Of a stretch of 64,000 nt of DNA, positions 3,993-38,991 are shown piece after piece. Below the pieces are notes generated by a model, which saw only the letters and a program-made list of their open reading frames with translations, was not told where the DNA came from and did not search any database. The DNA lies in the NCBI GenBank assembly GCA_903904835.1, contig CAIVEI010000051.1, positions 62,001-126,000 of the forward strand. Direction: 5' to 3'. The stretch comes from an uncultured Schlesneria sp. GTDB taxonomy: Bacteria; Planctomycetota; Planctomycetia; Planctomycetales; Planctomycetaceae. Within the stretch, counting starts at the first letter, position 1; each line of letters opens with the position of its first letter. Position numbers and translations under genes: made by a program.

Positions 3993-4325
3993 TTAGCGTT
4001 GAGCACCTACGAGTTCCTGTGTGCGTCGCGCTGCCGATGCGATTTCATGGGTATTTCCAACGGCTTCGGCAACCAGGTTATCTGCACCGGCTGTTTTGTG
4101 GCTGGCTTCGCTTCCTGTTGCGTGAGCGGCGGATGTCGCAGTTGCCCAACTAATAAAACCGACGACCAGGTAGAACGCTCCGACTGCCGCGAGACCCACT
4201 GTTGGCCAGTGACTGAAGGGCATACCGAGTACTGCGGCGCCGAATGAGCAGATCGCGACCGAAAAGCTGCTTAAGGCGACGGGATTCATCGACAGGCGTG
4301 AGGCAGGCTGAACATTGTGAGACAT
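3993..4325 (-). CDS. Small double-TM protein B (paralogue of 1438 and 6266 genes)
   Basis: 110-residue protein homologous to the small proteins at 1438 and 6266. Met13, Phe21, Cys26, Phe28, Gly34 and Trp40 are at identical positions, helix 2 is shortened, and an FYLVVG motif follows. Like protein A it keeps a tail motif, DNLVAEAV. Two TM helices (about 16-36 and 43-62) precede an Ala/Thr-rich tail with many small residues. The gene begins 54 bases after the SulP transporter stop on the same strand and is the last gene before a terminator, so it is surely cotranscribed with SulP. Function unknown. The recurrent pairing with an anion transporter suggests a helper or regulator, which is inference. 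Confidence 0.85.
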   Translation of the reverse strand: MSHNVQPASRLSMNPVALSSFSVAICSFGAAVLGMPFSHWPTVGLAAVGAFYLVVGFISWATATSAAHATGSEASHKTAGADNLVAEAVGNTHEIASAARRTQELVGAQR

Positions 4326-4379
4326 CGTCTTAACTTTCGTGAGTTTGGGGCAGTAGCGGAATTGGTTTTGAAATTGAAA

Positions 4380-6080
4380 TCAGGCGGATTGAGCAGTCGG
4401 AGCGGCGACTCGCACGCAAGCGTCGTAGTGGGACAACGGTTCCAGGTGGTCGATACCAATGATTTCGACCGGGACGTTTGAGTGTGAATATTCCTTGATG
4501 GCGTGCATCAGGTTTTCGGCCGCCGTGTGGTCAATCAACGCGACTCGTTCATCAAGATGAACTTGAACCGACTTGACGTCGGAAGGAATCTCGTCAAGCT
4601 CTTCCGACAGTTGCATCGTGTTGAAACAAACAAGTGGTTTGTCGACGTACATGTGGTACACACCATCGCAATATTCACGGTTAACAACCGGGTTGCGGAA
4701 GAAGTCTCCCATGCACTTCGCTAGCGAAAGATTCTGGACGCCACTCGCGGTTGCGGTGGAAATCGCATGTCGACAAAACAATGTGCTCAGTACAAAATTT
4801 GCTGCGACCCCCGCAGCGATTCCGACCAGCAAATCTGTCAGCAGTGTCACGATAATCGTGAACGAGAAGATCACGACTTGCTCTTTTCCAATGTGGGCCA
4901 TGTGTCGCCACACCAGTGGTTCGCACATCTTCCAACCGGTGTAGATCAGAACGGCTGCCAGCACACCAAGAGGGATCATGTTGATCCAGGCCGCACCGAC
5001 AAGTAGATAGATCACCAGGCAAACCGCGTTCGTGAAATTAGCCCACAGTGTTCGACCACCCGCTGCGATATTCGCTTTGCTTTTAACGCCGCCGGGAATG
5101 ATGGTCAGTCCACCAACGAGACTCGACGCGACGTTGGAAACACCCATCGCCAGCAAGACCCGATTCGCATCGGATTTTCGATGGTATGGATCGATTCGAT
5201 CAATCGCCATGGCTGTGGCAAGAGATTCGACTCCATCGATCATGGTCAGCATGATCACCCCCACTGCTGCAGCCTGCCAAAGATCGCTACGGGCAAGTAA
5301 CGCACTGAAGTCAGGACTGTGAATTCCGTGAAAAGGGTTATCAGGAAGCTTAATCAGAAATCCTGGACCTAAGTCACCAATATGGACAATCTGCCCCAGG
5401 ATGACACCGAAGATCACAGCCAATAACTGAGGTGGGACAACCTGAAAGAACTTGTATTTCTTCAACGAACCGAACACGAACAGCATGACCAGGCTGGCAA
5501 AAGCGACCGCAAACGCCTTGGTTGTCATCCCTTGTGCGTATTCTGGAACGCTTGTGACGAATTCCATGAATTCATGAGCGTGAACCTTCCCGGTGAACCC
5601 GAAAAACTTCGGAAGCTGTTTCACGATAATCAGCAGTCCGATCGACGCCAGCATCCCTTCAACGACCGTGACAGGAATAATTGCAGCAAACCGTGCCAGT
5701 TTGAGCAGACTGAGAATGACTTGCAATACGCCGACAATAAAGATCACGACGAGCAGAAATTTATAACCTTCGCCAACATGCTCGGCGTCGCCCGCCCCTC
5801 CGAGTGCGATCATCACCGCCATGACCGCAGGTGCCAGACCGGCCGCGGGGCCGGCGATCGTCACATAAGCGCCACCGATAAACGGGAAGATAAAGCCCGC
5901 AATGATCGCAGAAATCAATCCGACGATTGGAGGGACACCTGAGGCAATTGCGATGCCCGAAGAAAGTGGCAACGAGACCAAAGAGACAACGATTCCAGAG
6001 AGAATATCGCTACGCAAATGTTTCAGCCCCGCGATTCCGTTCTGAGGCTTTTCGTTCGATTCAACTTGGTCGGAAGACAT
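4380..6080 (-). CDS. SulP-family anion transporter, probably bicarbonate (BicA-like)
   Basis: 566-residue transporter of the SulP/SLC26 family. The N-terminal half has the family signature LPLSSGIAIASGVPPIVGL and the TIAGPAAGLAPAV segment. The mid region carries MIDGVESLATAMAIDR and the NRVLLAMGVSNVASSLVGG / IIPGGVKSKANI stretch. A C-terminal STAS-like domain (about residues 450-550) keeps VALIDHTAAENL. Members carry sulfate, bicarbonate or other anions with Na+ or H+. The presence of an SbtA-type gene and paired small proteins nearby suggests bicarbonate, but sulfate cannot be excluded from sequence. It is transcribed after small protein C (185-base gap) and followed by small protein B. Confidence 0.92.
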   Translation of the reverse strand: MSSDQVESNEKPQNGIAGLKHLRSDILSGIVVSLVSLPLSSGIAIASGVPPIVGLISAIIAGFIFPFIGGAYVTIAGPAAGLAPAVMAVMIALGGAGDAEHVGEGYKFLLVVIFIVGVLQVILSLLKLARFAAIIPVTVVEGMLASIGLLIIVKQLPKFFGFTGKVHAHEFMEFVTSVPEYAQGMTTKAFAVAFASLVMLFVFGSLKKYKFFQVVPPQLLAVIFGVILGQIVHIGDLGPGFLIKLPDNPFHGIHSPDFSALLARSDLWQAAAVGVIMLTMIDGVESLATAMAIDRIDPYHRKSDANRVLLAMGVSNVASSLVGGLTIIPGGVKSKANIAAGGRTLWANFTNAVCLVIYLLVGAAWINMIPLGVLAAVLIYTGWKMCEPLVWRHMAHIGKEQVVIFSFTIIVTLLTDLLVGIAAGVAANFVLSTLFCRHAISTATASGVQNLSLAKCMGDFFRNPVVNREYCDGVYHMYVDKPLVCFNTMQLSEELDEIPSDVKSVQVHLDERVALIDHTAAENLMHAIKEYSHSNVPVEIIGIDHLEPLSHYDACVRVAAPTAQSA

Positions 6081-6265
6081 TCATAAATCCTTTAATGCGC
6101 GTTTGAACTCTGAAGTTCGTTCCGGAAGGCTGTTACGACGATTTCGAGTGAGAAAGAGAAAAAACTGCTATTCGTCGATCAGCGGGTTCCGTATGGGGAA
6201 AAACTTGAATCCGATGGAAGGCCTAACATTTTCGCCAACATCCCTGTTCTGGCGAATCGGATTCG

Positions 6266-6622
6266 TCATGACCTATGAGCATTGGCCAGCTTGTCGGATC
6301 TCGAACTAACCCCGGTTTCTTCAGGTCGCTTGGTCGCGAGATCATCAACGTTCATCGCGCCCGATAATCGATGTGAAGCGGTCTCAATCAGTTCGCTTTC
6401 TTGGGTAAACAACGGCTCCGTAGATCCGAGATTCAGCAGTCCAATCGCAAGATAAAACAGTCCCAGGCCCGCCATACCACCTACGGCCATCCAGCCGGAC
6501 ATCCATTGATTGATCAACAATCCAAGGGCGGCAGCACCAAATGCACAAGCTGCGACAGCAAACGACATCTGACTTGTCGAGTTCATTTCACTTCGGTTGG
6601 AGGTTTGTGAGTCGCGTGGCAT
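6266..6622 (-). CDS. Small double-TM protein C (paralogue of 1438 and 3993 genes)
   Basis: 118-residue protein, the closest relative of small protein A. It shares the S-Q-M-S-F start of helix 1, Cys26, FGAA, Trp40, and the GWMAVGGMAG segment running into GLFYLA. The C-terminal tail (residues 66-118) is polar and diverged; it has only a partial match (VDDLATK) to the DNLxAEAV motif of A and B. It lies upstream of the SulP transporter and 49 bases after a hypothetical membrane gene, on the same strand. No family name is known to me. Predicted inner-membrane protein. Confidence 0.83.
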   Translation of the reverse strand: MPRDSQTSNRSEMNSTSQMSFAVAACAFGAAALGLLINQWMSGWMAVGGMAGLGLFYLAIGLLNLGSTEPLFTQESELIETASHRLSGAMNVDDLATKRPEETGVSSRSDKLANAHRS

Positions 6623-6671
6623 ATTGAATTTCCTTGGCCTGAAGTGGCGTTCGATGCAGAACTTTTAGCAA

Positions 6672-7079
6672 TTACTTGGATTTTGAAGGGAAATCGCGAT
6701 CGTCCAAGTCGTAAACTTCACCACCGGCAAAGCCGATGTGACGAGGAGCTGAATTCAGTTCTGAAAGAAATCGTCGATAGGAGAGTTCCCTTCGAGAAGG
6801 GAGTATTCGGTGAAATTCCCGTCGACGAAACTTGGGCTCGACAATCAAGGCGATCAGGCAGCACGCAACCGACACAAGTAATCCAGCACAGAACAACAGA
6901 GAAGGTTGATATTGCTGATCAACGATTGCAAAAACGGACCCAAGGAACATTTTCAAATTCCGCAACAGTGATTTTTCATTCGTCAAATCGAATCGAGCGG
7001 TCATGACGCTGTTGAATGCAGTCCCTGTGCCGGATACAGATCTGGAGCTCGGTAAATTGACATCCTGAATCATTGGCAA
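6672..7079 (-). CDS. Hypothetical single-TM protein
   Basis: Possible 135-residue protein, not recognised. A 20-residue hydrophobic helix (about residues 60-80, with paired Cys) is followed by a very basic stretch and a C-terminal motif rich in Asp, Gly and Lys. The start may be the ATG at 7004, which removes 25 unconvincing residues. It stands 49 bases upstream of small protein C on the same strand, so it may lead that operon. Membrane anchor with cytoplasmic basic tail is the most that can be said. Confidence 0.5.
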   Translation of the reverse strand: MPMIQDVNLPSSRSVSGTGTAFNSVMTARFDLTNEKSLLRNLKMFLGSVFAIVDQQYQPSLLFCAGLLVSVACCLIALIVEPKFRRREFHRILPSRRELSYRRFLSELNSAPRHIGFAGGEVYDLDDRDFPSKSK

Positions 7080-7613
7080 CTCACGAGAATCGCCACAAGA
7101 TGTTTTCTGGAATTGTGTTGCGAAGTGACGTTGATGCTAATGCCAAGCAATTATGAAGCTTCCGACAGCATTCGTTGAGTCGCTTTGTTTCTATGAAAAC
7201 CAAGAAATTGGCCAGAAAGTGGCCACCCCAATTGGCCAGGAATTGGTCTTCCCTAAAATCAATTCCCGTTGGTTTCCGATTGAGCAGAGAAATTGCCGGT
7301 AAAGGTTATCAGTAAAGCTGGTTGATCTTTGCGGTAACTCTTCGCGGTTGAGTTGGTCGGTTGAGCTGGTGGCAACGTTAGCATGCCCAACGAATATGCC
7401 TGCTGGATGAGTAACGGAACGCAACTTCGAATCCTTCCTCCCGCGTCGTTTGTTTGTAGTTGCAGTCCGTTCCGCAGTAACAAAAAAGGAATTTCTCCAA
7501 AGTCCACGCCACAAAATATCGCTCGTCCGATCCCAAGGCTGCCGGTTTTTGGTTTTCCCTGAATAGCACGACCCAACCTGGATGCGTATCATCGCGCTTC
7601 TGGCTACTGTACG
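7080..7613. other. Non-coding or decayed stretch before the helicase remnant
   Basis: No frame has convincing protein features. Around 7208-7250 the word TTGGCCA recurs several times within a short stretch. The region borders gene remnants and probably is degraded DNA. Confidence 0.5.
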
Positions 7614-7871: not shown

Positions 7872-8771
7872 CCATTTGAAGGCCAGAACTATCGTGGGTT
7901 CTTCCACGGGTACGACTACTCGGCGGCACTCGACGCTAACGCCGCCAACGTGCTCAGGGTGTATCTGAGGGCGATCGAACATTTGTTGGACGTCGGGCAG
8001 AACGTGGGCGAAGAGGCGAAGCAGATCACTCCTCACTTGGCATTTTTCCAGCGGATCGCCGCGATGATCCGTAAACGGCTGGCAGATGACGCCGAGCCGA
8101 CGCCGGGCGGAGGTGGATCGCGAGACATCGATGCCGCCGTGAGGCAGGTGATCGGCGACGCGGTCGAAGCGGGTGAAGTGATCGACCTGTTCGCGGCGGC
8201 GGGCCTGGACGCGGCACGGCTGGACATCCTCAGCGAGGATTTTCTCGATCGAGTCAGCGCATTGGTGCACAAGAACCTGGCGCTGGAGACACTGCGGAAA
8301 CTGCTCACCGACCAGATCCAGATCAGTGAGCGGACGAACCTCGTGCAGGTACAAAAATTCCGCGAGGCGCTGGAGAAGGCGATGCTCAGCTACACGAACA
8401 AGCAGATCACCACGGCCGAGATGATCACCAAGCTGCTGGAACTGGCGAAGTGGGTGCGGGAGGCGAAACAGCACGGGAACGACCTGGGGCTGAGCACCGA
8501 GGAAGTCGCATTTTATGACGCGTTGGCGGAAAACGGATCGGCGAAAGAAGTGATGAAGTCCGACCAGCTTCGCCTGATGGCTCGTGAATTGGCCGAGATG
8601 GTCAAGAAGATGCCGAAGCTCGACTGGACGCAGCGGGAATCGGTTCGGGCAGACCTGCGTCGCAAGGTCCGAAGGTTGCTTGCCATGTACGGGTATCCGC
8701 CGGACCTGTCGGAAGATGCGACGCAGCTTGTGCTGAAGCAGGCGGAACTGTCGACGGAGGCGGGTGTGTAA
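7872..8771 (+). pseudogene. C-terminal remnant of type I restriction HsdR
   Basis: About 300 codons that match the C-terminal helical part (DUF3387 region) of type I restriction-modification R subunits. It begins with an FFHGYDYS segment and continues through ITTAEMITKLLELAKWVREA, typical of HsdR ends that bind the methyltransferase core. The endonuclease and motor domains are absent, and there are no hsdM or hsdS genes. The frame is open from the stop of the helicase remnant; internal starts (TTG near 7950) could make a 273-residue protein, but no role is likely. Base composition is clearly more GC-rich than its neighbours, which supports foreign origin. Confidence 0.82.
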
Positions 8772-8920
8772 TCGACGTTGAATGCGTGATAGCAATCATC
8801 TGTCTGCATGCACGGAAAACGATTTTCCTGCGCACCTTCCAAACGTTAAAAATGTATCTGTGTGTTTCTATTGACTAACGATATTTGTTATTGTAGTTTT
8901 ATGTCGCTTATTGCGAAGAG

Positions 8921-8981
8921 GCGGCAAAGCGCCGAGAGCATATGAAGTGGAAAGTAGAAAGGCGACAGCCGCTGCGAGCGG
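8921..8981. repeat. Dispersed repeat, copy 1
   Basis: Begins GCGGCAAAGCGCCGAG and ends GCCGCTGCGAGCGG. The outer words match the copy at 9144-9184, with a longer middle. The two outer words are partly complementary (GCGGC and GCCGC), so the unit can fold. Confidence 0.6.
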
Positions 8982-9037
8982 ATTATCACTTTCTCCTAGC
9001 GCACTTGCTGGCCTTTTCGGCCCGGCTGGCCTGCGGA

Positions 9038-9086
9038 ACAAAAGCGGGACAGGCACGTCGAAGCTCGGAGCCAGTCCCGGTTTTGT
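9038..9086. repeat. REP-like imperfect palindrome
   Basis: Arms 9038-9054 and 9070-9086 pair over 17 positions with two mismatches (ACAAAAGCGGGACAGGC against GCCAGTCCCGGTTTTGT) around a 15-base loop. The GGGACAGGC / GCCAGTCCC core resembles bacterial REP elements moved by REP-associated transposases. No such transposase gene is in the window. Confidence 0.6.
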
Positions 9087-9143
9087 TCTGAGGACGACAA
9101 TTGATCATTGACAATTTGGAAAACAAATTTCATACGGACCGCG

Positions 9144-29164: not shown

Positions 29165-30916
29165 TCAGTCCATCTGCATTAAATCAGGGCAGAGTCGCCT
29201 CAATTCCCCTCCGAGATAGTTCTCAACATCACGAGCCACTTCCAGAGTCTCGGCCCGCGCGGCGATTTTTTCCGCCTTTGAGATCGTCAGATTTCGAATA
29301 ACCTCCTTCAGTTCAGGTATTGCATGGGGTGTTACACTAAATTGGCGAATTCCCATTCCAATCAGCAGCGGCAGGAATACAGCGTCGGAACTCATTTGGC
29401 CGCAAACAGAAACGGGGATGTTATGCTTCCTTGCTGCGTTGACGACGTTACGGATCATTCGCAGAATCGAAGGATCTCCCGATCGATAAAGATTCGCAAC
29501 GGCCTGGTCTGCCCTATCCACTGCGAGAGTGTACTGGATCAGGTCGTTAGTCCCAAGCGAGAAGAAACCGACTTCTTGAGCAAATTCTTCTGCCATAATC
29601 GCAGCAGACGGGACCTCAACCATCATTCCAATAGGAACATCTCTTCGAAAAGGAATTCCCTGTTCTTCTAAATCTTCTACAACGTCACTTAAGACCATTT
29701 TTGCCTGACGGTACTCGAGCAACGTCGAAATCAACGGAAACATGATCCGAAGATCTCCGAACTCGGCAGCTCGCAGCGCCGCCCTCAGCTGTGTTTTAAA
29801 CAGCTGAAGATGCTGCAGGCTCAATCGAATGCTCCGTACACTTAACGCGGGATTGACGCTCTCAGGATACTTTGCGCGCAACGCGCCCGGCATTTTGTCG
29901 GAACCAAGATCCAGCGTTCGAATGGTAACCGGCTGATTTGGAAACGCTTTCAAGACCTGACAGTAGGCCTGGTAGTGATCCTCTTCGGTTGGCTCACGAT
30001 TTGACTCGAGGTAAAGAAACTCAGTTCGATAAAGACCGATTCCAGCGGCACCCTTCTCTTTGCAAGGTCCCGCTTCCTGAGGAAATTCAATGTTACCCAG
30101 GAGACTGATGGCAACCCCGTCTTGAGTCTCACAGGGGAGCTTGCTTAGTGACCTTAACCGCCGTTCGTGGCTTCGGAATCGCTCTTCAGAATCGCGATAC
30201 TTGACGAGTGTCTCTTCATCGGGGTCGATGATGACCACGCCATGACTGCCGTCAATAATAATCGTTTCAGAACCGGTAACATCCGACAGAAACTTCCCAA
30301 TCCCCACGACCGCCGGGATTTCCATAGCCCCAGCGAGGATCGCTGTATGGCTTGTGTGACCACCGACTTCCGTCGCAAAACCAAGCACAAATTTGCGATC
30401 TAAATTGGCCGTCTCGCTTGGGGTCAGATTGCTCGCCAAAACGAGGACTGGTTCGGTAAGATTTCCCAACTCTTCACGTCGCTCGCCTAGTAAATGGCGC
30501 AGGATCCGTTTTTCGAGGTCAAAAATATCGACGGAACGCTCCGCAAGGTAATGTCCACCAAGGTTTTGAAGTTGCTTTGCATACTGGCCGAGGACCTGGC
30601 TGACTGCATATTCTGGTGACTGCTTCTGCTGGATTCGCGTTTCGACCTGCTCGATCAGTTGCGGGTCCCGGACAAGCATCAAATGAGCCGAGAAAATCGC
30701 CGCATACTGTTCGCCTAAGCGCTCACGGGCAAGTTTTTCATTAAGCGAGATTTCTCGGCACACGGCATCAAGTGCGGTGTGAAAGCGGTTCAGTTCAAAC
30801 CCGATGGCACTAGCCGATAGATATCGGTGCGGGATTCGAAAATTCTCTGAACCGAGGACCATCGCTGGACCAATCGCCACGCCGGGCGAAACTGCGATGC
30901 CGCGTTTGATCTGCAT
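29165..30916 (-). CDS. ptsI: PTS Enzyme I (phosphoenolpyruvate-protein phosphotransferase)
   Basis: 583-residue Enzyme I, which takes phosphate from PEP and passes it to HPr. The N-terminal domain has the active His in GGHTSHTAILAG near residue 190. The PEP-binding barrel has GIGLYRTEFLYLES, MVEVPSAAIMAEEFAQEVGFFSLGTNDLIQYTLAVDR, and the C-terminal Cys in VSVCGQMSSDAVFLPLLIG. The ATG at 30916 gives the standard start MQIKRGIAVSPG. It follows HPr by 48 bases. No sugar permease is near, so the chain probably serves regulation. Confidence 0.96.
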   Translation of the reverse strand: MQIKRGIAVSPGVAIGPAMVLGSENFRIPHRYLSASAIGFELNRFHTALDAVCREISLNEKLARERLGEQYAAIFSAHLMLVRDPQLIEQVETRIQQKQSPEYAVSQVLGQYAKQLQNLGGHYLAERSVDIFDLEKRILRHLLGERREELGNLTEPVLVLASNLTPSETANLDRKFVLGFATEVGGHTSHTAILAGAMEIPAVVGIGKFLSDVTGSETIIIDGSHGVVIIDPDEETLVKYRDSEERFRSHERRLRSLSKLPCETQDGVAISLLGNIEFPQEAGPCKEKGAAGIGLYRTEFLYLESNREPTEEDHYQAYCQVLKAFPNQPVTIRTLDLGSDKMPGALRAKYPESVNPALSVRSIRLSLQHLQLFKTQLRAALRAAEFGDLRIMFPLISTLLEYRQAKMVLSDVVEDLEEQGIPFRRDVPIGMMVEVPSAAIMAEEFAQEVGFFSLGTNDLIQYTLAVDRADQAVANLYRSGDPSILRMIRNVVNAARKHNIPVSVCGQMSSDAVFLPLLIGMGIRQFSVTPHAIPELKEVIRNLTISKAEKIAARAETLEVARDVENYLGGELRRLCPDLMQMD

Positions 30917-30964
30917 AAATGACAACAATCTACAGGGAACACCGCCACAGTTTGTAATAATGAA

Positions 30965-31258
30965 TTAAACAGGCCGAGGCGGCGATTGAAAACCACACGA
31001 GAAAAGGTCAGTCACTTCGTTTAAGGCATCAATCGCATCGGGTCCAACGACCTCAAGCTCCAGGTTCGTCCCTTGTTCCGCAGCCAACGTAAGCAACTCC
31101 AATAAGCTCTTCGCATCGGCTCGCGTCGTACCTCGAGAAAGTATCACGGAACTTTGATGCTGTTGTGCGGCGAGCGCGATCAATTGACAGGGGCGAAAAT
31201 GAAGCCCTTGTTCATTGATTACTGTAACCGTTCGTCGATGAATTACGGCCTCAGACAT
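30965..31258 (-). CDS. HPr-family phosphocarrier protein
   Basis: 97-residue phosphocarrier. The active His is in NEQGLHFRPCQLI near residue 17, where typical HPr has GLHARPA. The regulatory-site region DAKSLLELLTLAA keeps the Ser used by HPr kinase in other phyla. The ATG at 31258 gives a normal length; an upstream 14-codon extension has no family match. It lies between an EIIA gene and ptsI and forms the middle link of the phospho-relay. Confidence 0.94.
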   Translation of the reverse strand: MSEAVIHRRTVTVINEQGLHFRPCQLIALAAQQHQSSVILSRGTTRADAKSLLELLTLAAEQGTNLELEVVGPDAIDALNEVTDLFSCGFQSPPRPV

Positions 31259-31438
31259 GATGAATCGTTCATCACGTGGATGTTTCAAACCAAGTGACAC
31301 GGTTTACGGATATGCTGGCAAAACAACAGAGAAGTGTCGAAAGACGATAATGAATAGCGACGCTTCCCTTGGAAACCCTGCTTTGAATCCGGAGTAAGTC
31401 TGCAGTTTCCCGATGATCAACCACATCGGGAAAAACCA

Positions 31439-31909
31439 CTAAATTTCGTTATTATCAGCTTCAGTCAAAAGCTCCCAAATATCTTCGCTGGTCTTCGATT
31501 GGCGTAGAAATTTGCAGAAGTGATCATTTCTCAAATGCCGTGAAATGTTTTCAAGGCCCCTCAGATGATCACCAGGTCGATCCGGTGGTGAAACGAGCAA
31601 AAAGATGATGTAGACCGGCTCGCCGTCTAAGCTGGCAAAATCAACACCCTCTTTGGAGAGTGCAATTGCCGCAATTAACTTGTCAGTTGAGGCATGTTTT
31701 GTATGCGGAACCGCAACACCGCGTCCGATTCCTGTCGAACCAAGCTCTTCTCGTTTCAGAATTGCAGCAACAATATTTTCCTCGTCCTCAGCCTTGATGC
31801 TTCCCGCCTTCTGAAGGCTGGCCACCATGGCGCGAATTGCTGATTCTTTGGTCCCGGCTGGAAGTTCCGGAACGATCGCTCCTGGAACAACGAAGTCACA
31901 CAACTTCAT
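31439..31909 (-). CDS. PTS EIIA domain protein, PtsN/fructose type
   Basis: 156-residue stand-alone EIIA of the mannitol/fructose/nitrogen family. The phospho-accepting His is in [13 protein letters not shown] near residue 66, and the acidic [24 protein letters not shown] segment is typical. No EIIB or EIIC domain is attached or adjacent. With hpf upstream and HPr and EI downstream the unit resembles the nitrogen-PTS of proteobacteria, where EIIA regulates instead of transporting. Targets cannot be read from the sequence. Confidence 0.94.
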
Positions 31910-32042
31910 AGATCTCCCCTTTCGGCTTATCGCCGTTTATGACTACTTATTGACGATTCTCAAGACCATACTGAATTGTTGATCAAACACTCGCCTTCGA
32001 CATTATTATTCGAAATCTCTATCTTTCGCAGCAGCGTAGCGA

Positions 32043-32399
32043 TTACGGCTTTGCTTCTGGGCTTCGTTTTTCCGCAGCTTCCGCAATTTCACCCAGCGTC
32101 GGGTCGCCACGGTGGTCTTGAATCTTCTCTTTATATTTCCGGACTTGCTGTTCCATTTTGTGAAGCGCCGCATCGAAGACGGGGATTACGTTGTCCCCTG
32201 ATTCGCTCGCCACAAAATCATGGCGATGTTCGGCATCAACCAGAATTTCGACATTGATTCGATCATTGGAAAAATCGACCGTTACATTGATCGCGGTCAC
32301 CCGATCAAAGTACGTCAACAGTTTTTCCGCCTTACGAGCAATGTGTTCATGTGCGCTGGGACTTAAGGTACCGTGTCTGCTGGTAATGGCGACTTGCAC
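32043..32399 (-). CDS. hpf: Ribosome hibernation promoting factor, short form
   Basis: 118-residue HPF/YfiA (RaiA) protein that sits in the 30S decoding region and silences ribosomes in stationary phase. Family marks are the start VAITSRHGTLSPSAHEHIARKAEKL, the VEILVDAEHRHDFVASES strand and the DAALHKMEQQVRKYKEK helix. The dimerising C-terminal domain of long HPF is absent, so it is of the short type. It heads the hpf-EIIA-HPr-EI gene row, although 133 bases separate it from the EIIA gene. Confidence 0.94.
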   Translation of the reverse strand: MQVAITSRHGTLSPSAHEHIARKAEKLLTYFDRVTAINVTVDFSNDRINVEILVDAEHRHDFVASESGDNVIPVFDAALHKMEQQVRKYKEKIQDHRGDPTLGEIAEAAEKRSPEAKP

Positions 32400-32811
32400 C
32401 GAAACCTACTCTTTCTTAATGAACTCAAATTACGATTTTGCCTCTGACAAAATAACCCCGAGGACAACGCCCCCGGGGAAATCGATGCTTCGATTGTATT
32501 CCGCAGGAATCGTCCGTCAATCACGTGAGACACAAGTCCCCTTCATGATTGAGATTTGATTTACGGCCGACCAGTACTGCGGGGTCATTCGGATCCCGCA
32601 AAAATAAGAATAAATCCTCCCCGCGCACAAAGTGTAACACCTCGGCGGGATAAGGAAAACCAAATAACGCACAACCGGAACTTTACCAGCGAAAAAACAA
32701 GATATCCGCAGTTTTCAACGCTCCGCTCGTGCGAAATCGTCTCGAGAATTTAACGAGTTGACTGTGAGTAAAAACGGGTCGTCGAACTCTTCATCTTTTC
32801 ATCGCGTCAAT
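32400..32811. other. Intergenic region upstream of hpf
   Basis: About 410 bases without a gene. The terminator at 32447-32478 lies close to hpf, leaving under 60 bases from it to the hpf start for a promoter. No -24/-12 sigma-54 pattern was evident. Confidence 0.5.
32447..32478 (-). terminator. Intrinsic terminator upstream of hpf
   Basis: On the minus strand CCCCGGGG and CCTCGGGG pair around a short loop and are followed by TTATTTTGT. It would end transcription arriving from the lipoprotein gene before hpf begins. Confidence 0.65.
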
Positions 32812-35196: not shown

Positions 35197-36150
35197 TCAT
35201 GTTTCCGTTGCTTGTATCAAACCGCGGATATACCCATAAGCAAATAAGCGGCCGAGCATCGTATATCCTGGTTCGCCATCGTCCTCGCCGTACATTTGTG
35301 GAACGTGATCCGGTCGGATTGGACCGTTAAAACCGATCTGATGGTAAGCGCGCATGGCAGCAGGCATGTTGGTCTCTCCGTTATCATGAAATGTCTCGAC
35401 GAATGACTCGCGCGTCCCACGAACGTCGCGGAAATGCACGTACTTTATGTGCTTTCCCAGGCGGCGAATCGAGGTGGGGATATCGACCCCCATTGAGGCG
35501 AACGTCCCCTGACAGAAACAGATTGCGTTGGATGGGCTGGGGACAAGGTTGATCAGTTGTTCAAAATTCTCAACCGAGTTCATGATGCGAGCCTTTCCCT
35601 GAAATTCGGGAAGGGGCGGATCATCCGGGTGCATGCACATCGTCACGTTTACCGATTCAGCAACCGGAATGAGGGCGCTGAGAAAACGTTTCAAGTTCTG
35701 CCAAAGCCTGTCCGATGAAATCGTTTCCCGTGACATTTCTGATGTGTTTGCACTGAGTGACATTGCTCGGTGGGCGTCAGCCAGATCAAATGCGGTCACC
35801 TTTGCTCTACCTCGCTCTGGAGCATCGAGACGCGTTCGGACCCAATCAGTACCTGCCATAAAGTTGTAGCAAAGCAGCGGAATTCCGGCCGTTCCCATGT
35901 TCTGTAGAAGCGACTTCATTACGGTCAATTCGCTTCCATCGTCCAGGCCAAATTTTGACCGTTCGATCGGAAGATAGCCTTCAATTACCGACAGCTTCAT
36001 ACCGAATGACTCAATCCGAACTCGCAAACGAATGAGATCTTCAAGCTTCGGACCAGGATATCTTCCGACGACATCAGTCACTCCGCATTGTGCGGCGAGG
36101 GTGAGGTTCTCGTCTGACATCGGAGTTAAAACAGTCGCCAGTCGCATCAT
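35197..36150 (-). CDS. Mannonate dehydratase-like (UxuA family) enzyme
   Basis: 317-residue TIM-barrel protein of the UxuA family, which dehydrates D-mannonate to 2-keto-3-deoxygluconate with Mn2+. The metal and substrate motifs are visible: [11 protein letters not shown] near residue 172, [20 protein letters not shown], and [11 protein letters not shown] near residue 280. The protein is shorter than E. coli UxuA (~390) and like the type found in other planctomycetes. The end of the glycosyltransferase gene overlaps its start by 4 bases. The KduD-like SDR at 61379 could act in the same uronate route. Confidence 0.88.
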
Positions 36151-36977
36151 TTTACCAGGCTCTCAGTTTTCAATTCACCTCGGGCTGGGTCAAACAACGG
36201 TGATCGCCAGACCCCAAGTTTTCGAGCCCAGAATTTTGCCAGGACATTCAGCGTGGAAAATCCGTACGTGACACTTCGCCGAAAGTTGATGCTGGACATT
36301 TCATCAAAGTAGCGGACAGGTACAGGAATATCGCCAAGTTTGAAGCCGAAGTAGACTGCCTGTGCTAAAAATTCGCTATCGAATACGAAATCGTTCGAGT
36401 TTTTCAAATAAGGGATCGTTTCCAGCACTTCACGGCGATAGGCGCGAAATCCACTATGAAAGTCGCCGAGATTTTGCCCGAGGGCAATGTTTTCGGTGAA
36501 TGTCAAGCAACGATTGGCAACGTATTTCCACGGAGGCATCCCACCGGAGAGGGCCTCGCGCCGTGTCCGAATCCGCGACCCCATAATGAAATCGCAGATG
36601 CCCAGACGAATGATATCAATCGCTGCTGGAATCACCCGACTGTCATATTGATAGTCGGGATGGATCATCACGACGTAGTCCGCCCCATTTTCCAATGCCC
36701 GACGATAACAAGTCTTCTGATTACCGCCATAACCAAGATTCTTTTCATGACGAATCACCGTCAGGCCGATTCGTTCGGCAATTTCAACAGTATTGTCGCT
36801 GCTGCAATCATCAACGAGAATAATTTCATCAACCGATCCTGCCGGAATGTCGGCGACCGTCCGTTCAAGCGTCCGTGCCGCGTTGTAAGCGGGCATAACG
36901 GCAATTGTCTTTCCACGCGGCAATTTCTTGCCTTCTGGAAAAGATGGAAGTTCGTCACTGTTTAAAATGGATAACAC
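36147..36977 (-). CDS. Family 2 glycosyltransferase, polyprenyl-phosphate sugar type
   Basis: 276-residue GT-A fold enzyme similar to dolichol-phosphate glucosyl/mannosyltransferases. It has [31 protein letters not shown], and the metal-binding region [15 protein letters not shown]. No C-terminal membrane helices are present, so it is probably a peripheral enzyme charging undecaprenyl-phosphate. The start is GTG at 36977. It leads the operon with UxuA-like, MazG and hydrolase genes, and its stop overlaps the UxuA-like start. The sugar is unknown. Confidence 0.92.
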
Positions 36978-37202
36978 AACAGCTCAATTCATGCAGAACA
37001 GGGGGCATTGACTCGAAAATCGATGGCGACATTATCGAGAAATGCAGCCACGTTGGAAGCGGCACGGGGCGTCAATTTCCTAATTTGCCTTACACCGCGC
37101 ATCACCAAATTCGACGACCATGATTTGACGATTTATACCCCGGCGTGTCACCATACGGATTCGATGTTTAATCATAACCGCTTAAATACCAGGATTCCGC
37201 TC

Positions 37203-37799
37203 ATGCCTAAGAAAAAAGCCGCGAAAAAGACTTTGGCCAAAGACGATTCGGTCGCATCTCAACGGATTGTCATGCGAACTGGTGAAGCATTGGTCGAAGC
37301 CGAACCGGCGTATTCGGCGGCGGAACCAGAAGTTGTGATTGGCGAGTTGGACGGCCCAGTTGGTTATGCGATTGCCAATTTAATCGGGGACCAGACCAAA
37401 GGACACTCCCGCGTGTTTGCCATCTTGAATTGTGATGTTCAAGTTCGTCCGGTCACCCTGATGGTCAGCAAAGTCACGGTAAAAAACACAAAATACACAA
37501 ATATCTTGATGGGCTCAGTCCAGGCAGGTATTGCGAATGGAGTTCTCGACGCTGTTCGAGCGGGTGACATTCCCAAGGAAAAGGCCAACGATCTCGGGAT
37601 TATTGTTTCTGTATGGCTTGATCCCAGTGTGACCAAGGTGGAAGTGGATCACAACATCCTGTTCGAAACTAACCGGAAAGCGACAGCGAAGGCTATTCAC
37701 AAAGCCATGCACAATGAACCGGGAATCGATTGGTTACTCGAAAACCAAAAGGACGTGACACACTATTTCCATCAATTGGGAGTCGATAAGAAGCTGTAA
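37203..37799 (+). CDS. Formaldehyde-activating enzyme (Fae) homologue lacking the catalytic His
   Basis: 198-residue protein homologous to Fae, which couples formaldehyde to tetrahydromethanopterin. Shared segments are RTGEALVEAEP, GPVGYAIANL, GHSRVFAILN, RPVTLMVSKVTVKN, and NRKATAKAIHKAM. In active Fae a His follows GEALVG by about seven residues; here that stretch reads EAEPAYSAAEPEVVIG, with two extra residues and no His. A Lys-rich start (MPKKKAAKK) and a ~20-residue C-terminal tail are added. The ATG at 37203 is chosen because upstream codons show no family match. Likely a Fae-like paralogue of altered function. Confidence 0.88.
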   Translation: MPKKKAAKKTLAKDDSVASQRIVMRTGEALVEAEPAYSAAEPEVVIGELDGPVGYAIANLIGDQTKGHSRVFAILNCDVQVRPVTLMVSKVTVKNTKYTNILMGSVQAGIANGVLDAVRAGDIPKEKANDLGIIVSVWLDPSVTKVEVDHNILFETNRKATAKAIHKAMHNEPGIDWLLENQKDVTHYFHQLGVDKKL

Positions 37800-37809
37800 T
37801 TCTTCAATA

Positions 37810-38991
37810 TCACCGTGATTTGCCTGGGATTTGACTCAACAGCTCGGCAACGACTTCGGGCTGTTGAGAAGCAATATCATTAACGTCCCAAATGTCTTCC
37901 GGTTTGAAAAACAGGGCGGTTTGATTTGTCTGATTCGATTGCGAAAGGTCGACTTGCGAATCGATCGCGTTCGCTTGAATACAGAGCCAGTCGTTTGTTC
38001 GAATTGCTTTTGTCTGGAGGCCATCGCCGTACCAGACCGCCGACCGCGCTGGAACGTCTTCTGTCAATTCTCGCAGCCAACTTCTACCTGGGTATGGCCC
38101 TTGGTCAGTAAAATGAGCCAGATCAAACCAGTCAATTAACGTGGGGGCCAGATCACATGTTTGGACCAGTCGATCTGATCGAAGGGAGTTGAGATTCGGA
38201 AATCTCGCGTCTCGGGTTACGCTTAACACGAGAGGGATTCGCGTCAGTTGATCGCCAAGGGTCAGCGCTTTACTCGAAGCGGGGTTCAACTTTGATTGTT
38301 TGATTTGCTGCCAGCCAAAGCCCGTCGCCGCCGTCACAATCACCAGTAGAGGCTCCTCAACAACGTCCGTCGCTCCCTGAGCGAGAAGTTCGCCTAGCCA
38401 GTGGTCCAATAACGACACCGATCCTGCATAAACAGCAGGATGTCGTGATCGTTCTTCATCGGATAAATCGGAAAGATCCTGACCTCGTTCTTCAAAATCT
38501 TCAAAATAAAGAGCGTCAAAACCCTCAGGTGGAATCCCTGGCCCAGGTGCGTGAACCCACAATAACTTTGCCTGTTTAGTGGTTGTTGATTGTTTCCGTT
38601 CCGAAATCGCAGCCTTGACCACCTCGGCGAACGGAATTTCGTCCGGCTTGGTTCCGATTCCTTCACGCCCGTGAACACGAATCACGTTGTCGAATTCAAA
38701 GCTCTGTTGCCAGCATTGAAGGTCACCTGCAGCAATCAATTGCGATTCGACATTGCCGGTACGTAACAGGCTTCCGATGGAAATCGGCGGAGAATTCGCT
38801 GGCAGCAAGGAATGTTGACCAGTCGACCAGGCCATCCCGGCCATCGGCCCCAGCGTATCAAGGAAATGTCGGTCAAAGACAGCACCTGTGGCGGCAAGCT
38901 GATCAAAGCTGGGTGTCTCGATCCACTCATTGCCGTAGCAGCCGAGAGAATTTGTGGCGAGCGAATCGAAAGAGACGATGACAGCCTGCAT
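37810..38991 (-). CDS. Sulfatase/alkaline-phosphatase fold protein without the formylglycine Cys
   Basis: 393-residue protein of the sulfatase-like hydrolase superfamily. The N-terminal metal strand is VIVSFDSLATNSLGCYGNEW, then TPSFDQLAATGAVFDRHF. At the place of the C-x-P-S-R modification motif it has DTLGPMAGMAWSTG, so no Cys or Ser is available for formylglycine. Later segments (LLDHWLGELL, QTCDLAPTLIDWF) are typical of sulfatases. No signal peptide, which is also unusual. Perhaps a phosphatase-like or inactive member. It converges with the Fae-like gene, 10 bases apart. Confidence 0.85.
   Translation of the reverse strand: MQAVIVSFDSLATNSLGCYGNEWIETPSFDQLAATGAVFDRHFLDTLGPMAGMAWSTGQHSLLPANSPPISIGSLLRTGNVESQLIAAGDLQCWQQSFEFDNVIRVHGREGIGTKPDEIPFAEVVKAAISERKQSTTTKQAKLLWVHAPGPGIPPEGFDALYFEDFEERGQDLSDLSDEERSRHPAVYAGSVSLLDHWLGELLAQGATDVVEEPLLVIVTAATGFGWQQIKQSKLNPASSKALTLGDQLTRIPLVLSVTRDARFPNLNSLRSDRLVQTCDLAPTLIDWFDLAHFTDQGPYPGRSWLRELTEDVPARSAVWYGDGLQTKAIRTNDWLCIQANAIDSQVDLSQSNQTNQTALFFKPEDIWDVNDIASQQPEVVAELLSQIPGKSR

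Follow-up and report, generated by a model that had tools for sequence, protein, structure and literature searches.

Planctomycete Fae3, a Fae paralogue with glutamate in place of the proposed catalytic histidine

Background

The question raised by the locus described here is what a protein with the fold of formaldehyde-activating enzyme (Fae) does once the proposed catalytic histidine has gone. Fae, also known as 5,6,7,8-tetrahydromethanopterin hydro-lyase, serves bacteria in capturing toxic formaldehyde by condensation with tetrahydromethanopterin. The gene lies in a stretch of 64,000 nucleotides from an uncultured Schlesneria sp. (contig CAIVEI010000051.1; the whole stretch is referred to as the window), and a first-pass annotation made from the letters alone had described its product as a Fae homologue without that histidine. 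The histidine of the AHID motif is taken here to be the proposed general acid of Fae, as in the Methylobacterium extorquens structure. Homologues named Fae2 and Fae3 have long been recorded from the genomes of methylotrophs, but no function has been assigned to them. To our knowledge, growth on C1 compounds is not known for the planctomycete class that carries Fae3.

Gene, domain and fold

The open reading frame starts with an ATG at 37203 and ends with a TAA at 37797-37799 (Table 1). No structured RNA above Rfam thresholds was found in 36500-38500. Across 34 planctomycete fae3 loci, the window included, no neighbour family was common to more than four when fae3 itself and the reading frames overlapping it were left out of the count, and the search for an operon-based function in planctomycetes therefore gave no lead.

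Table 1. Coordinates of the fae3-type gene, its neighbours and the protein features discussed in the text (positions in the window)
Feature	Position	Strand	Remark
Glycosyltransferase gene, divergent, upstream of fae3	36147-36977	-	
fae3-type gene	37203..37799	+	198 aa, lone gene
Lys-rich N-terminal extension, residues 1-21	37203..37265	+	varies among relatives, among the alignment rows listed
Glu41-Pro42-Glu43 replacing canonical His-Ile-Asp	37323..37331	+	alignment
His68	37404..37406	+	alignment column
Residues 98-107, second replaced block	37494..37523	+	alignment
His187 and 11-residue C-terminal extension	37761..37796	+	alignment
Sulfatase gene, convergent with fae3	37810-38991	-	

Two arrangements were noted in passing. 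Genes resembling ptsI, HPr, a PTS IIA domain and a ribosome hibernation factor (by eye) lie near fae3 at 29200-32400 of the window and at two further loci (L051, L074), which come from a congener and from a member of a different family. This sharing, seen in 3 of 34 loci, is probably local synteny. Head-to-head pairs of fae3 genes were seen at L070 (7925-8548 on the reverse strand, 8589-9095 on the forward strand) and L071 (725-1456 reverse, 1293-1871 forward); their second copies match from residue 39 onward only, so that the GEALV strand is absent.

The Pfam Fae domain (PF08714) was matched at 201 bits over residues 26-189, model positions 1-158 of 159, which bears out the description of the remaining Fae domain as retained; no second domain was seen in the Pfam search. 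The window protein was matched to M. extorquens Fae (PDB 1y5y, 1y60) by phmmer with an E-value of 6.8e-16. A Foldseek search with a predicted model of moderate quality (pLDDT averaging 69.3 and falling below 50 for residues 65-85) returned 1y60 and 1y5y as best matches (E 7e-11 to 6e-10, TM 0.77-0.81 by target), and Fae proteins were the only matches with E below 1e-4. The Lys-rich N-terminus and the C-terminal extension noticed at first sight are both present; the chain continues for 11 residues beyond His187 in 85 of the 93 Fae3 rows aligned, window protein included, and for 5 or 6 in 31 of the 36 canonical rows.

The genome of 8.18 Mb contains sulfatases and genes of the tetrahydromethanopterin (H4MPT) pathway. 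An authentic fae, which the annotation had proposed to look for elsewhere in the genome, was found at C81:25416-25889 as a second, His-bearing Fae (motif IAHIDLLIG), adjoining an Mpt_N-domain protein (the methylene-H4MPT dehydrogenase domain) and an ATP-grasp protein.

Substitutions in and around the histidine segment

The segment GEALVEAEPAYSAAEPEVVIG of the window protein aligns to GEALSGEGNEIAHIDLLIG of the canonical Fae of the same genome and is two residues longer, and the histidine of the latter falls on Glu41. When the Fae, Fae2 and Fae3 groups were aligned, as had been suggested with the first annotation, this column split into H in 36/36 canonical, E in 93/93 Fae3 (73 rows from the window's class or phylum, 20 from Proteobacteria) and M in 85/85 Fae2 distinct sequences, the rows having first been sorted by motif and two His-bearing fusion rows (L106) left out; the window protein stands with Fae3, and the claim that it lacks the proposed catalytic histidine in this segment is thus confirmed. 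A misaligned histidine was ruled out for the stretch between GE(A) and IG, H68 and H187 apart, since a histidine anywhere in that stretch was found in none of the 93 Fae3 rows and in all 36 canonical rows; 2 of the 85 Fae2 rows have one there, away from the His column. The replacement of the segment and its two extra residues stand as first described, whereas its length can no longer be regarded as distinctive because 8 of the 36 canonical rows also have a segment of 28.

A second block, missed at first sight, is also replaced. It spans residues 98-107, and its canonical counterpart reads Q98, A99, Q101, M102, F103, G104, P105, A106 and Q107: the swaps Q98Y, A99T, Q101I, M102L, F103M and A106V, together with F138W and Y158R, are fixed or nearly so in Fae3. 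The canonical residues K90, V91, T92, G104 and Q107 are retained. His187 is conserved in 36/36 canonical, 85/85 Fae2 and 91/93 Fae3 rows (the other two being gaps), and His68 in 93/93 Fae3, 85/85 Fae2 and 18/18 planctomycete canonical rows, against 0/18 proteobacterial canonical rows; judged by these columns, both could be active-site residues in Fae3. No mention of the His replacement in Fae2 or Fae3 was found in the available portions of the literature on these groups, and it may already have been reported.

The conserved H68 and H187, and glutamate as a possible acid, would suit a Fae isozyme, slow or specialised, with Glu41, His68 or His187 carrying out the acid step, as would the passing of the NCBIfam equivalog cut-off described below. 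We consider such an isozyme very improbable, given that Fae3 has other residues at further positions that are fixed in canonical Fae and that, according to the available text of PMC11748545, an author-named Fae3, that of M. alcaliphilum (its sequence not compared here), failed to rescue the AM1 delta-fae mutant. For the role of Glu41 proposed below, the occurrence of Glu at position 41 in Fae3 as opposed to Met in Fae2 implies that an acid role shared by both groups is not general.

Annotation by profile models

The Fae equivalog model of NCBIfam (TIGR03126, cut-off 118.05) scored the window protein at 124.7 bits, above the cut-off, and its own canonical Fae at 257.9. The Methylovorus Fae3 also passed at 136.2, as did a Fae2 at 140.9; the Fae3 of Methylobacterium sp. 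DM1 (106.4) and the M. aquaticum Fae2 (115.3) fell below. The curated model thus lets through certain proteins in which the proposed catalytic residue is missing, and because it passes the His-less window protein, annotation of the latter as active Fae is misleading. Genomic and metagenomic tallies of formaldehyde-activating enzyme, those for planctomycetes included, may be inflated.

Group membership

Sorting by motif would by itself be circular; the tree was built independently of it, from 108 of 216 rows after thinning. With bootstrap not settled and a long-branch warning that concerned chiefly the two L106 fusion rows, support was 100/99 for Fae3, 100/97 for Fae2 and 100/99 for Fae2 and Fae3 together against canonical Fae (93/93). 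The Fae3 branch, which also holds one row of unusual motif (SGEPEV), unites the window protein with the Fae3 of Methylophilaceae (100/99). The window protein is almost certainly the planctomycete form of Fae3. Its description as a paralogue of an authentic fae was correct, and it need no longer be treated as unplaced: the Fae3 group itself is known from methylotrophs, where it was named.

Gene counts link this group to the published name, with an M. methylotrophus strain different from that of PMC4109929. Three Fae-family genes of three types were found in the M. methylotrophus genome (G580), and two canonical Fae genes and one of Fae2 type in Methylophilaceae bacterium 11 (G583); the counts tabulated in PMC4109929 and matched to these organisms are fae 1, fae2 1, fae3 1 and fae 2, fae2 1, fae3 0, respectively. 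In that table, fae2 is present in every genome and fae3 in some.

Most planctomycete Fae3 rows of the thinned tree fall on one branch (99/94). Three rows (L065, L082 and L067) were placed among proteobacterial rows, and on this placement transfer of the Fae3 gene between planctomycetes and Proteobacteria, in one direction or the other, is likely. Separately, a Fae2 gene in a genome of the window's class (G297, L069 7982-8527), on a contig of 839 kb and 89% identical to the Fae2 of Methylophilaceae bacterium 11, is a recent transfer or contamination. The L106 rows come from two neighbouring reading frames in G398 (4179-5642, 488 aa, and 5633-7120, 496 aa), an unusual fusion of a DapA-like N-terminal part (by eye) with a C-terminal Fae domain; both retain the histidine (EVHIEILAG, VAHIDLLIG) and are 25-26% identical to the window protein.

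Distribution and selection

Among 170 genomes of the window's family, a match in the Fae3 range was obtained in 116 (107 with a second Fae-family match, nine without), a match in the canonical range only in 48 and no match in six, the second matches having been sorted by E-value and mostly not read as sequence. Of the family genomes, 84 reach a completeness of 97% or more: 65 of them have Fae3 and another Fae, 19 the canonical range only and none Fae3 alone; six of the nine Fae3-only genomes are 91-96% complete. In the class, Fae3 was present in 143 of 248 genomes, in some as contig-edge or broken pieces. Two of these (G191 and G233, both 99% complete and with mch) gave no second Fae match at E 1e-5, and together with six family genomes of 90% completeness or higher that have Fae3 alone they argue against strict dependence on canonical Fae.

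Any Fae match was found in 23 of 246 genomes of the phylum sample (E 1e-5), eight of them marked as outside the class; Fae3 outside the window's class was seen in G411 and G476. PMC3628875, in the part available, describes Fae as typically encoded by planctomycetes and methylotrophy as not demonstrated. For the class drawn around Methylophilus, taken as the Gammaproteobacteria of GTDB, matches at E 1e-40 came from 19 of 274 genomes, 18 with Fae3 and one (G828) with Fae2.

Fae3 was found in 141 of 232 mch-positive class genomes and in 2 of 16 mch-negative ones (Fisher p 3e-4, shared ancestry uncorrected), and this co-occurrence is in part shared ancestry. The two mch-negative carriers are G295 (64% complete) and G076 (a draft of 350 contigs); 91 mch-positive class genomes are without Fae3. 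In Proteobacteria (the class around Methylophilus plus Methylovorus), mch accompanied Fae3 in 18 of 19 carriers, the exception being G601, in which no canonical Fae was seen either. An AHID-motif Fae was read directly in 17 of 18 proteobacterial genomes (17 Fae3 carriers and G828), with none in G601.

Selection was estimated from 11 of 13 same-genus fae3 copies, ten of which were of equal length and gave 45 pairs. The dN/dS ratio was 0.005-0.041 in 24 of these, the remaining pairs being saturated at synonymous sites. A decaying pseudogene was ruled out, since the ratio is low in the calculable pairs and orthologues occur throughout the class. In seven genomes with both genes, mean identity over 21 genome pairs was 69.4% for Fae3 and 81.6% for canonical Fae; Fae3 is constrained, yet less so than canonical Fae.

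Loci and phenotypes in methylotrophs

Two proteobacterial loci place fae3 among methylamine-type genes, the names mgsABC, gmaS and amidotransferase being readings of gene order, annotation and profiles. On plasmid pLVM1 of Methylobacterium sp. DM1, where dimethylamine-monooxygenase-like genes are among those preceding fae3, the order is a DmmA-like gene, an oxidoreductase, an HODM-type subunit, mgsA, mgsB, mgsC, a gmaS-type gene (type III glutamate-ammonia ligase), fae3 and a globin; in Methylovorus menthalis it is a soxG-like gene, a gmaS-type gene, mgsA, mgsB, mgsC, an amidotransferase and fae3. The comparison covered 20 Fae3 loci of Proteobacteria, including these two (L260, the 21st locus, is Fae2), and no methylamine-type genes were among the shared families of the others within at most about 7 kb per side, less at contig ends. 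In 3 of the 20 (L107 12628-13035, L256 7883-8281 and L257), fae3 has a gene for a bacterial-type globin close by. The link was looked for in the window's own genome, where a search for MgsB gave a weak MgsB-like match only (31%) and no HODM-type demethylase was found, and for these two reasons it cannot be transferred to that genome.

Published phenotypes come from several methylotrophs. According to the available text of PMC5023235, fae3 of M. universalis is up almost 10-fold on methylamine; revertants on methylamine were obtained from delta-fae1 and none from delta-fae1 delta-fae3; the single fae3 deletion left growth unimpaired; and a revertant to which fae3 had been added continued to grow on methylamine. 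Deletion of fae3 in M. alcaliphilum likewise left growth unimpaired as described in PMC11748545, which, in the part available, distinguishes five Fae groups on a tree including planctomycetes, with groups 2-4 lacking a known function. As given in PMC3728764, expression of fae2 and fae3 is moderate and unresponsive to conditions. For Fae2, PMC7356819 reports that deletion of fae2 in M. aquaticum 22A slows growth on methanol in the wild type and not in delta-mxaF. The sole Fae match on M. aquaticum plasmid 1p (L110) has the motif DAMPEVLIG, from which the 22A Fae2 would be without the histidine if, as seems probable, its locus tag corresponds to this match. On plasmid pAZKH of Azoarcus sp. KH32C (L109 3259-8531) a Fae2 gene directly follows formylmethanofuran dehydrogenase/formyltransferase genes, which is another tie of a His-less Fae to the H4MPT pathway.

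The N-methylglutamate-pathway-type loci bear on the idea of a tetrahydrofolate (H4F)-linked Fae that would join formaldehyde to H4F or pass C1 units between H4F and H4MPT. The replaced motif would suit a change of cofactor, C1 shuttling has been suggested for Fae3 (in PMC5023235), and condensation with H4F has been suggested by modelling for Fae1-2 (in PMC11748545). A protein working with H4F only would not be expected to track H4MPT as Fae3 does (141 of 143 class carriers with mch), a point that is not decisive because formaldehyde flux may accompany the H4MPT pathway, and the window's own genome is without a clear MgsB; we regard this explanation as improbable.

Proposed function

For the substitutions, group membership, selection and mch co-occurrence of Fae3 observed above, we tentatively propose that planctomycete Fae3 is an old Fae paralogue which serves the H4MPT pathway as an accessory C1-pterin protein, its active site having been re-made, rather than a spare Fae (rough probability 0.45 for the mechanism). 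Since the fold of Fae is kept together with some of the canonical residues, binding of a tetrahydropterin that carries or accepts a C1 unit would most likely be retained. Canonical formaldehyde capture would not be expected, because the proposed acid histidine has become a fixed glutamate and the neighbouring motif has been rebuilt. Glu41 would occupy the place of the canonical histidine, and the protein may bind or move a pterin-bound C1 unit through transfer, release or buffering of methylene-H4MPT. Also in favour of this proposal are the methylamine-type loci of Methylovorus menthalis and Methylobacterium sp. DM1, the induction and revertant data from M. universalis and the failed rescue by fae3 of M. 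alcaliphilum. Against it count the single fae3 deletions that left growth unimpaired, the M. universalis revertant that kept growing with fae3 added, the methylamine link not found in the window's own genome, the Glu/Met difference at position 41, the chance that H68 or H187 supplies a histidine, the faster divergence of Fae3 relative to canonical Fae, the share of the mch co-occurrence that is common ancestry and the 91 mch-positive genomes without Fae3.

The near-restriction to H4MPT genomes, the strong purifying selection and the retained residues fit a pterin-binding or regulatory role and an enzyme of changed chemistry alike. The regulatory or pterin-binding role first suggested for the window protein is among the published suggestions and agrees with the data, as does changed chemistry. 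In its non-catalytic form, the protein would be a sensor or regulator that, through binding of H4MPT or methylene-H4MPT, signals the C1 load to other proteins. The loss of the proposed acid histidine and the lone gene, with no neighbour in more than 4 of 34 planctomycete loci, are in keeping with this, and sensing or regulation has been proposed in print for Fae homologues (in the available parts of PMC3728764 and PMC11748545). A sensor or regulator is nevertheless somewhat unlikely, in view of the missing second domain beside Fae and of the old His position, which in Fae3 is one fixed acidic residue without drift.

A broader and more doubtful extension of the accessory-protein reading is that Fae2 and Fae3 form one old branch that underwent a single loss of the acid histidine, after which Met or Glu became fixed in the pocket. 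The members of this branch would then be enzymes with a novel C1-pterin reaction, such as one that releases methylene units or exchanges them between H4MPT and a second carrier. If this is true, such enzymes would occur in a majority of the genomes sampled from the planctomycete class. The fixed His-to-Glu (Fae3) and His-to-Met (Fae2) changes, strong purifying selection and near-restriction to H4MPT genomes make the question testable by single-residue variants.

Comparison with known systems

The closest known counterparts of the window protein are the Fae3 proteins of Methylophilus methylotrophus and Methylovorus, which share its tree group, the AEPE motif and the extended C-terminus; identity to the M. 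methylotrophus (G580) Fae3 is 64%. Planctomycete fae3 is a lone gene, many copies of which have a Lys-rich N-terminus, whereas fae3 of Methylovorus menthalis follows N-methylglutamate-pathway-type genes. Fae2 (Methylophilaceae, Burkholderiales, Methylobacterium aquaticum) is the sister group of Fae3 and likewise lacks the histidine, but has Met at its position and retains Asn157 and Tyr158, both of which are changed in Fae3. With M. extorquens Fae (1y5y, 1y60) the window protein has fold and family in common; it differs in having Glu-Pro-Glu for His-Ile-Asp, a rebuilt QMFGPAQ-type motif and, compared with 1y5y, a longer segment ahead of that motif and a longer C-terminus.
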